Origin: Procambarus clarkii
Lineage: Eukaryota; Arthropoda; Malacostraca; Decapoda; Cambaridae
Direction: 5' to 3'
Assembly (NCBI RefSeq): GCF_040958095.1
Contig: NC_091237.1
Coordinates: 14,383,364-14,447,363, forward strand
DNA length: 64,000 nucleotides
Below are positions 2,062 to 55,091 of this stretch, piece by piece. A program made the position numbers and the translations under genes. The notes under the pieces were generated by a model. That model searched no databases, was not told the DNA's origin, and saw nothing but the letters and a program-made list of their open reading frames with translations. How positions within the stretch are numbered: position 1 is the stretch's first letter; every line of letters starts with the position of its first letter.

Positions 2062-2528
2062 GTGACATATAAAGGAATATTCTCCCATCCCGAGTTCCCC
2101 CAAGCGGCTCCGTCCAGAGAAACGTAAGATTATTTACTGAAAGTATAAGAACTTGAGGCTGAGGGAAACTCTAGACGACCCAAGGACCACCTGTCCCACT
2201 GGGTGTTGGGGCGTGTGTGGGAAGACTGTGCTAAGCCACTGAGTATCACTTACGGGTCCATAATGGTCACTTTGCCTCGTTCTCACCAGCAGTTAGGTTC
2301 TGTTGTGCCACAATAAATATACTAACTACTAATACAATGTTAACTTTAGGGAAACAAAGAGTGTTAGAGGATTACGAGTGAGTGTGTAAATACTGGGGTA
2401 AAGAAGGGGTGTATTATGAGAGGCAGCGACCATGAGGAGGGTGTGAGGGAGGTGTTGAGGCGGGCAGGTGGGGCCCAGTTCCTCACTCTCCTCCTCACCT
2501 TCACTCCAGTAACATCGTCTGGCTCAAG
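2062..2528 (+). promoter_or_regulatory. promoter and leader exon block of inverted copy P
   Basis: The block begins with GTGACATATAAAGG, a TATA-like box at 2,066-2,074, and ends at the exon 1 donor, CTCAAG then gtcttt, after 2,528. By eye it differs from the block of gene B at only about ten positions over 460 bases. The last 113 bases, from the ATG at 2,416, show about one difference. The coding exons of the same copy are heavily decayed. The block also holds a short upstream ATG frame near 2,262. It may still be able to start transcription; that is inference. Confidence 0.7.
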
Positions 2529-4390
2529 GTCTTTATATATTACGGTAATGTGTATTTTAACGTTGGTTTAAAGTGCTAGTCGTAGTTTTAGATCTGGGTA
2601 GATGCTTAGATGAGGTGTAAAGTGCTCGTTTTAAATAAACATGTATTGTTGACTTCCTCCTATGAAATGAATACCCTTGAATTCTTAAGACTAATAATAT
2701 CATGACTAATACATTTAATAAGTTAGAAATAACATTTCCTATAACAATGTACCAATTACTAAATATCTTGAACATTTACGTATATTTTTTTTTTTTAAAG
2801 GTCACATACCTGAAACTTTTAACGTGCCTGAAACCAGGTAGTTTGCCACTTGTTAAACACTTAAAGATGCCTTCGTGTAACTAAAAGGACCCTTCGTGTA
2901 ACTAAAAGGACCCTGGAACTTTGTATTATATTGAAATAACGAACCTAAACTTGTTTAATTATAATAACCATAATTTGGTAACTGCATTATACTAAACTAT
3001 TCTAGCCTCGTTTCTAATAATTTAATGGCCGAATCTTTCAAACTTCACGATTATACACCTACATAAACCAAATTTGTAACAATGTAAAATTTCTATCTGT
3101 AATGCTAAATGTCAATTTCATATTGATACTATTGTCACTAATACGTATGTTTTTAAATGCTATTTCGTTACGTAGTGTATTTCTAATTGTGCATAGTTAT
3201 TAGTATGACAGGCTATGCAAAGGTTTAAATCTTTACATACTTATTGCAGATTCAGTTTCTAAGGTCTTCAATAAAGAGCTTTGTGTTTCACGTAGCTGGA
3301 ATGACTAGCCAATTTCTGCAGGTATGGGTTTTGGCATCCAGTCCTTGGATATTTTAGTTCAAATCTTGACAATATTTTGTCTTATATTTTGAAAGTAGAT
3401 CTATATTGGCTAAAATGTATTAATGATTGTAAAGTCTAAAAGTTAAACTAATTTTTCTTGCAGGATCCTGATCTTCATAACTTGGATGTGTCGGTTGCTC
3501 TTGGCAAGTTTTCAGAGATGCGGGTGGCCCACTACCTGAATTAAACGCTGTAGTAGCGATGCCTTCATCCTGAAAGGTTCTGGCAGGGGCCCGACTCTTA
3601 AGCTCTGAGCAGCGCCGCTGAAACATTGTTCCTGAAATTCTTACCCCAAGGCTTTCGTGGTGAATTTGCATTCGTTGGCCAGGGTGATCTTGGTGGTCCA
3701 GGTCCTGACAAGGTATTCAGTGGTCCAGATACTATAATGGACTGTGGCAGATTGGGCCATGGGACCATCCCGTGGATTGCAGTGGGTAGCTGCTGGAAGT
3801 TTTGTCTGACCTGTTGGCCTCTTATGTCTGGAGGTGGACGATATCTTCAACCTCCCCCTAATGTCACCCCAAACTATCAGTTGAATCACTGTCACCGCCC
3901 AAACCTTCAACAGCGTAGCAGTCGTTCTAATTTCCTTCGGAGAGCAGACTGTCGCCGTTGGAACTCTTTCGGTAAGTCTACGGTGACACTGTGACATATT
4001 AAGATCATAATACGCACATCTGCCGCTAAAAATTTCTACCTCTACTACACAGGTGCTACAGGCTCCCATTGATGACCGGATCGTTCTATGGAAGTTTTTG
4101 TCCGGCCCGCATCCGTGACGTTAACTGAAGTGAAGTCTGACTTCAGGATCATGACGAACGTCACTAGGCTGTGACCCTTGGCCACACTTCATTAGCCAGT
4201 ACACGTACACCACCATGGCCACTTCAGGTGTAAGCACTTGTGCTTGAGTGATGTAATTTACTGTTGCTTCTGTGTTAATGATTTTTATTTAAGTGTACAG
4301 CGACGGTGGTACTCACAAATATTAACACCCATAGAACTACCTTCACAAACTACGGCAGTGATATGTTACAGCAGTTACCGGCCTAAATAA
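2416..4390 (+). pseudogene. copy P: decayed, inverted copy of the GP-repeat / Val-Thr-rich secreted protein gene
   Basis: Pieces of the family follow in order on the plus strand: leader exon 2,416-2,528, exon 3 about 3,474-3,971 (acceptor tttttcttgcag, donor TTTCG then gtaagt), exon 4 about 4,053-4,229, and exon 5 about 4,291-4,390. Exon 4 is 177 bases against 191 in the live copies, so it is out of phase. Exon 3 has several frame breaks. I found no counterpart of signal-peptide exon 2. The 36-bp repeat array is reduced to about two poorly matching units near 3,670-3,735. An AATAAA lies near 4,463. It faces gene A tail to tail. The repeat array probably expanded after this copy split off, although loss by decay is also possible. 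Confidence 0.75.
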
Positions 4391-4529
4391 GTACTGACAG
4401 GCATTAGTCTTGTAATTTTAATTTGAGCATTTTTGATAATTCCTAAATGTGTAGCTGGGAAAAATAAATTGCATCAAATAAACTTTTATCTTCATTTACC
4501 CGAAAGTTTTCTAACGTGTTAAACGGTCT

Positions 4530-53893: not shown

Positions 53894-54624
53894 CTGTAAT
53901 GTTTAGGCATTTTAGAATAAAGTCCTGGTTAGGACTTTGTTACAGATCCTATGGCGAAGTAAGAGTTAAAAATGTTAGTCTAACACCAGCAATAATTCAT
54001 TACCGTTATGTTAATTGGAAGACAGCGGCAGCCATTAAAAAAAAAAAAAAAAAATGTATACACAGTGTAAACGATACGAAGTTACAGTCTAATGTTTTGA
54101 GCCTCCGAAGTGAACCTCCAGTGAGGAGTTCTAAAGTAGGGGAAAGCAACCAGAGTGAAAATAAAAAAAAAAATTAGTATTGCAAAAACCGAACTAAAAG
54201 CCATTCCAAGTTTAATACGAGTCAATATTTAGCTTACGCTTTACACTTTAAAAATTTATTCCGATTTAAGACTTATAAAATTTTCTTTTGTCTCCATATT
54301 TTATACAAGTTAATAGAAGGGTTGCTAAAGCAAGCGTAGGGACGAGTTTAAGCTACTCCATATAGTCTTAATACTGTTAATTTTGTATTAGAAACAAAGA
54401 GAAGCCGTTATAAACGTTCAAATTCAAATACTATAATAAGTCCCAGAGTAAAAGTACACTTTACCCCATTAATGCCTTTTTACGTTTTAGAAGAGGTTAA
54501 AATAAAAACTCACCTAATATCAACATACCAAGGACTTAACACAAACAACCAAAATTACCCCCCCCCCCCCAAAAAAAAAAAAAAAAAAAAAAAAAAAAAA
54601 AAAAAAAAAAAATTAACATAATAC
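53894..54624 (-). other. intron 1 of gene E
   Basis: Related to the C and D introns over its right half. A C run joined to a 43-base A run lies at 54,559-54,612, close to the leader donor. Confidence 0.6.
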
Positions 54625-55091
54625 CTTGAGCCAGAGGATGTTACTGGAGTGAAGGCGAGGAGGAGAGTGAGGAGCTGGGCCCCACCTGCTCGCCTCAACA
54701 CCTCCCTCACACCCTCCTCATGGTCGCTGCCTCTCATAATACACCCCTTCTTTACCCCAGTATTTACACACTCACTCGTAATCCTCTAACACTCTTTGTT
54801 TCCCTAAAGTTAACATCGTATTAGTAGTTAGTATATTTATTGTGGCACAACAGAAACTAACTGCCGGTGAGAACGAGGCAAAGTGACCATTATGGACCCG
54901 TAAGTGACACTCAGTGGCTTAGCACAGTCTTCCCACACACGCCCCAACACCCAGTGGGACAGGTGGTCCTTGGGTCGTCTAGAGTTTCCCTCAGCCTCAA
55001 GTTCTTATTCTTTCAGTAAATAATCTTAAGTGTATCTGCACGGAGCCGCTTGGAAGAACTCGGGATGGGAGAATATTCTTCTATATGTCAC
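54625..55091 (-). promoter_or_regulatory. promoter and leader exon block of gene E
   Basis: Highly similar to the blocks of B, C and D, but the TATA-like box is changed (gtgacatatagaag in place of gtgacatataaagg) at 55,078-55,091. Similarity to the other copies ends exactly there. The leader ATG is at 54,735-54,737. Confidence 0.6.

Follow-up and report, generated by a model that had tools for sequence, protein, structure and literature searches.

A 64-kb stretch of the Procambarus clarkii genome (G000:C88:14383364-14447363 of a 4.03-Gb genome; hereafter the window) carries one decayed gene, P, on the plus strand and five genes, A to E, on the minus strand, all belonging to a family whose secreted product has GPGP-type repeats. 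In these genes a conserved block precedes the coding exons, and we concluded that the 350 nt of it common to all copies (the core; P 2171-2520) have very probably been homogenised by recurrent ectopic recombination between the copies, and not by constraint. Four observations carry this conclusion: the core shows an excess of similarity, its similarity depends on the position of the copies along the contig, core, flanks and exons have incompatible histories, and old pseudogenes have retained it.

The core of P (2171..2520, plus strand) is a homogenised part of the leader exon in a dead gene and follows the upstream part of the block (2059..2170, plus strand), which is of a type here called U1 and contains a TATA-like box (TATAAA, 2068-2073). 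The leader cores of the other genes were located on the minus strand at 15541..15890 (A), 32018..32365 (B; U1 promoter part extending to 32477), 38656..39005 (C; U1 promoter part extending to 39117, donor AAG/GTATTA, slash at the junction, near 38648), 45193..45542 (D; U1 part to 45654) and 54633..54982 (E; U1 part to 55092). By BLAST over 475-515 nt the block of P was 96.4% identical to B, 97.1% to C, 94.4% to D and 95.3% to E, whereas identity to A-E was 71-74% in its exon region (~3672-4361, small introns included). Over ungapped exon columns the identity of P to A-E was 79.5-79.8%, and the rest of P gave no further stretch over a bit-score cut of 120 against the other copies. A first-pass annotation of this DNA had reported a block nearly identical in P, B, C, D and E despite the decay of the P exons, and these values (94-97% for the block, 71-74% for the exon region) bear it out. 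The block is not limited to those five copies: A, which had been omitted, has it over 351 nt with 99.1% identity to C and 99.7% to D, behind a different upstream sequence. A and D have a synonymous divergence (dS) of 0.20, yet show 1 difference in ~350 core sites. The alternative upstream segment of A, type U2 (15891..16220, minus strand; TATATA ~16074, TCAGTT ~16043), is common to six copies outside the window.

Some details of that annotation had to be changed. The difference between P and B, put at about ten sites, amounted to 15 mismatches and 2 gap positions, so that the near-identity stands and the count does not. Similarity had been described as ending at the TATA-like box in P and E, which is roughly right, although it fades within ~20 nt upstream and has no exact stop. 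It had also been described as ending at the leader donor in all copies. This is approximately so in P, A and B (B aligns weakly with C and D ~60 nt past the donor) but not for C-D and C-E, in which similarity runs on through intron 1 at 96% and 85% (nt 400-640). A comparison of C with E gave 10 differences in 110 sites for the TATA segment, 2 in 350 for the core and 125 in 776 for intron 1 (core versus intron, Fisher p = 3e-19). Homogeneity is highest not at the TATA box but immediately downstream of it, in the 350-nt core.

All whole-genome match counts given here are lower bounds. A DNA search of the 4.03-Gb genome with the P block found at least 19 places (19 of 19 candidates scored), all on contig C88, within 14.34-19.54 Mb (5.2 Mb) and on both strands. 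A 25-mer from the core, allowing up to 3 mismatches, matched the same 19 copies in the 4.03 Gb, 16 of them exactly; a chance match of the core was dismissed because the reversed control gave 0. In every one of the 19 copies a family-exon match was detected ~0.8-2.8 kb downstream of the block in the same relative orientation, which in K consisted only of an 87-nt exon-3 match at 73.6%. With the end of exon 3 as query, at least 100 matches spread over many contigs were obtained; C88 accounted for 17, 16 of which are part of block copies. Decayed copies among the 19 are P, G, K, N and S.

Core and coding divergence were compared among the 14 C88 copies with open C-terminal exons, which include M and R, possibly decaying; the comparison was repeated without M and R in 12 intact-looking copies. 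In the 14 copies the mean Jukes-Cantor (JC) distance of the core was 0.028 (maximum 0.060) against a dS of 0.174 and a nonsynonymous divergence (dN) of 0.034, and the core distance lay below dS in 91 of 91 pairs. It lay below that of fourfold sites in all 66 pairs of the 12 intact-looking copies. An equal divergence of block and exons, which would have spoken against any peculiarity of the block, was not found; the block was well below the exons. On average, the core of the dead copies P, G, N and S was 3.1% different from that of the 12 intact-looking ones, against 16.8% for the exons, and homogenisation thus also affects non-functional copies. P, N and S have three frameshifting deletions in exon 4 in common, one of 4 nt and two of 2 nt; as these are shared, the lineage was dead before it multiplied.

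Around the leader, only the core can be aligned across all 19 copies. Upstream sequences were of two types: U1 in 12 copies, with the TATA-like box ~105 nt before the core (G, K and N have a deletion over it), and U2 in 7 copies, all 7 with TCAGTT ~153 nt before the core. Downstream sequences also fall into different types. In the quartet Q, R, O and T the upstream flank is shared by Q-R (85%) and O-T (94%) and the downstream flank by O-Q (86%) and R-T (92%), while O-R and Q-T have neither flank in common; the core is 96-98% identical in all six pairs. These four copies hold all four upstream and downstream combinations, which requires recombination between the flanks. The exons of S were closest to N (96.3-96.9%), then to P (91.8%), and its core was closest to T (99.1%), 17 kb away.

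Trees and Mantel tests were based on 18 of the 19 copies; K was omitted as having too little exon, and the mean was used wherever an exon distance was missing. In the approximately unbiased (AU) test the core data rejected the exon tree (difference in log likelihood 88, p-AU 2e-71; Shimodaira-Hasegawa p 0.0002) and the exon data rejected the core tree (difference in log likelihood 332). The core distance, given the exon distance, followed a grouping of the copies into 14-16 Mb and 18.8-19.5 Mb, a split picked after the data were seen (partial r 0.68, p 0.0002). With log distance in place of the grouping the same comparison gave r 0.48, p 0.0002, in agreement with the two-region result. The exon distance, given the core distance, did not follow position (r -0.14, p 0.87).

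The arrangement of the copies on C88 is itself regular. The five decayed copies are each paired with a convergent U2-type copy at a distance of 13-22 kb (P/A, G/H, J/K, M/N and S/T), and the dead-live pair looks as if it had been duplicated as a unit along C88. O and Q are placed head to head (G000:C88:18813368-18815255), with ~1.2 kb separating their cores; the two have 99% identity in the exons but upstream sequences that do not align.

A second cluster of the family lies on contig C9; its genes have homologues of the leader and of the later exons, and their signal-peptide exon is similar. Seven of its 11 copies (e-k) formed the comparison group; a-d (4 of 11) were omitted, their leader matching little or not at all. 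Between C88 and C9 e-k the leader had a JC distance of 0.67 and a p-distance of 0.44, both over 256 columns, with a dS of 0.70 and a dN of 0.11. From the closeness of 0.67 to 0.70 we concluded that over the long term the leader evolves at about the synonymous rate. The best local BLAST identity in copies a and c-k was 62-73% for the leader versus 76-86% for the exons; copy b, excluded from this comparison, gave 74% over 54 nt for the leader and 71-79% for the exons. The leader therefore does not show the long-term divergence below that of coding exons by which ultraconserved elements are defined. In C88 the ratio of divergence within the cluster to that between clusters was 0.046 for the leader (bootstrap 0.030-0.068), ~0.25 for dS and 0.31 for dN. 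Among C9 e-k the 165-nt leader was 95.3% identical, the exons 95.5-96.3%, the signal-peptide exon 81.4% and the upstream sequence 68% with many gaps. A still larger branch of the same protein family extends over ~11 Mb at G000:C54:9.4-20.7 Mb and contains long near-identical duplicated segments (L047 versus L048, 97.9% over 3.2 kb); the four loci compared there (L044, L046-L048) were uninformative, since large parts of them align with one another.

Several results weigh against recurrent exchange of the core, or against its generality. The within/between ratio of the C9 leader was 0.186 (0.151-0.253; 256 columns), about equal to the 0.19 of dS. C9 is thus without a leader-specific excess, and on this evidence preferential exchange of the leader need not be general in the family; a repeat of the C88 pattern had been expected there, and the 256-column comparison gave no leader-specific deficit. 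Many nodes of the core tree have low support, and the two-region split was, as stated, a choice made after the fact. In a Sawyer-type run-length test of C, D and E the longest runs lay in intron 1 and not in the block (D-E p = 0.0006, C-D 0.019, C-E 0.020), the block having too few variable sites for this test. Finally, among the matches listed, one C88 family exon, at 18,822,114, was without the block. This exon (G000:C88:18822114-18822368) contains an internal stop.

The identity of the block follows from the gene model. Exons 2 to 5 of C, spliced in silico, gave a single open frame of 426 amino acids up to the stop. On the minus strand they comprise the signal-peptide exon (MLYSTQLLKVVFLMAGVTCQYLPLQ; 37901..37975), directly after the acceptor, exon 3 with the GPGPVVAQGPFG repeats and the conserved C-terminal part (36899..37789), exon 4 (36600..36790) and exon 5 up to the stop codon (36317..36440). 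In A the signal-peptide exon likewise starts directly after the acceptor (TTGCAG/ATG; 14279..14356, minus strand), and the other coding exons span 12868..14114 (minus strand) up to the stop codon; the signal-peptide exons of B, D and E are at 31236..31304, 44425..44499 and 53819..53893, all on the minus strand. The decayed coding exons of P (3672..4361, plus strand) carry frameshifts, some of them common to dead copies elsewhere on the contig. Between the leader and exon 3 the acceptor-ATG signal-peptide exon was apparently intact in 12 of the 19 C88 copies; its frame was broken in M, and a scan gave no match in P, G, K, N, R and S. Similar exons are present in the C9 copies. A model with the leader as a coding exon, starting at the ATG at 2416 and in frame to exon 3 via a donor at 2509, was dropped because of this exon lying between the two. 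Under the signal-peptide-exon model the ATG at 2416 of P is an upstream open reading frame, and the conserved block is predicted to be the core promoter together with a non-coding first (5') exon.

The leader donor is likely AAG/GTATTA. All 14 open copies carry it; among the dead ones it is missing from G, K and N, P has GTCTTT (AAG/GTCTTT, 2526..2530, plus strand) and S has GTATTC, a one-base change that may be without effect. The alternative donor at 2509 (CCA/GTAACA) was less favoured than that at 2528/2529 (AAG/GT), because the latter occurs in all open copies over unlike downstream sequence and is missing or changed in the five dead ones; sites like CCA/GTAACA were retained in 18 of 19 copies. 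In A (window 14273-14284, minus strand), and at the corresponding place in the U2-type copies H, I, J and T, the signal-peptide exon would continue to an in-frame stop if it did not end at CAG/GC, which would be a GC and not a GT donor; among A, H, I, J and T the donor letters were seen in A only.

The products of this GPGP-repeat family are perhaps cuticle-like proteins. The exon-3 frame of C matched the Pfam family Cuticle_3 (PF11018) in the repeat region with 26.5 bits, below the gathering threshold of 27.1, and the joined C protein with shortened repeats matched no Pfam family; cuticle-like is here a descriptive term and not a family assignment. Long open reading frames at window 17413-18726 (minus strand) and 20201-20908 (plus strand) contain CxxC-type knuckle motifs, which we take to resemble the first open reading frame of a non-LTR (long terminal repeat) retrotransposon.

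In the explanation that we favour, the family lies scattered on both strands of C88 over 5.2 Mb, and its ~350-nt core would have been exchanged recurrently, by gene conversion together with some crossover-like or template-switch events. Partners would mostly be found within the same part of the contig, whatever their orientation or functionality, and flanks exchanged around the core would have joined different upstream (promoter) segments to different gene bodies. The first-pass annotation had offered gene conversion as one of two alternatives, and the incompatible trees, the position-dependent core, the four flank combinations and the retention in dead copies support it. That the core exchanges more than the exons would be due either to a hotspot at which breaks start preferentially, near the promoter, or to an island of homology that corrects itself, the block having stayed above the homology length of conversion while introns and exons fell below.

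The second of these possibilities, an exchange with no hotspot at all, is a serious contender, which we hold to be somewhat less probable than its negation. After duplication the block of 350-475 nt would have stayed long and similar enough to convert, whereas the introns gained insertions and the exons are short, and so the block alone would keep being corrected. This agrees with a core that aligns in all 19 copies next to introns that no longer align between many pairs, and with the absence of a leader-specific excess in C9. It accounts less well for the C-terminal part of exon 3: this too has kept some length and similarity (277 nt, 91-98% to C among open copies), yet exon similarity does not track position. 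More tentatively still, and on balance doubtfully, the leader exon might be a recombination adaptor: a hotspot of ectopic exchange at the start site that plugs U1 and U2 promoters onto alternative gene bodies over 5 Mb in either orientation, dead copies being kept as promoter-leader donors.

Selection for coordinated expression may have contributed, exchanges then being random along the gene and those in the promoter and leader retained for co-regulation. The extent of homogenisation matches that of the promoter and first exon, and a similar idea has been proposed for mouse V1R promoters (PMC1955453). Dead copies, which have no need for co-expression, are homogenised too, however; the TATA segment, likelier to be regulatory, is less homogeneous than the core (C-E, 10 of 110 versus 2 of 350), and two unlike upstream types coexist. 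We therefore consider this unlikely as the cause of the pattern, although co-expression of the working copies may be a benefit that the homogenised leader would help to maintain.

Purifying selection, under which the promoter and 5' untranslated exon would be densely regulatory or RNA-structural and nearly intolerant of change, is very improbable and already contradicted. The C9 leader does stand at the matching place with short conserved words such as GTGTGAGGGAGG, and the donor is kept in all 14 open copies. Strong constraint, the other alternative of the first-pass annotation, is nevertheless not supported as the main cause by a leader distance to C9 near dS and far above dN, nor by the low core divergence of the dead P, G, N and S, and it leaves the position-dependent core types and the four flank combinations unexplained. 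A transposon-like block inserted repeatedly upstream of family genes could account for the rather sharp edges of the block and for the number of near-identical copies on both strands, but is scarcely credible, as 19 of 19 copies found adjoin family exons downstream in the same relative orientation, none of the 19 places was found away from the family in the whole-genome searches, and C9 genes have a homologous leader.

Comparable cases are known. In PMC1955453, mouse V1R subfamilies A and G are described with islands of paralogue similarity of 500-1000 bp around mapped start sites and with paralogue substitution below that of orthologues, and its authors suggest promoter-homogenising gene conversion as a possibility. 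V1R promoters, by that description, reach about the coding level, whereas divergence in the C88 core is about one sixth of that at synonymous sites; in C88, furthermore, old pseudogenes share the core, flanks are shuffled and similarity tracks the position on the contig. For silkmoth chorion clusters, PMC4639761 describes gene conversion, pseudogenes in which promoter elements persist and, in one class, common promoter regions with >90% identity. They are thus a like case of an arthropod structural-protein family with conversion and promoter-bearing pseudogenes, but the chorion promoter is bidirectional and lies between paired genes, whereas the C88 genes, spread over 5.2 Mb, each possess a promoter and non-coding exon of their own. 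Promoter-associated recombination hotspots, as presented in PMC11703093, concern allelic meiotic recombination; they would put the initiation of recombination at the homogenised block, although described there for allelic and not ectopic exchange. The C88 case is of the same kind as the V1R and chorion precedents, with several independent lines of evidence and the shuffling of flanks. The literature searched, by title and the start of the abstract, named no crustacean case of promoter homogenisation; one item in it concerned the ribosomal DNA spacers of Daphnia.

Conservation between paralogues is an unsafe guide to regulatory DNA. Near-perfect conservation of promoter and 5' exon was seen here in dead copies with broken frames, three of five of them without TATA box or leader donor, and the near-identity of the block is no sign of function because the copies apparently keep exchanging that stretch. 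As inverted live/dead pairs recur along one contig, the C88 system could be used to separate promoter-proximal ectopic recombination from selection. It also suggests a route by which gene families may swap promoters without transposition.

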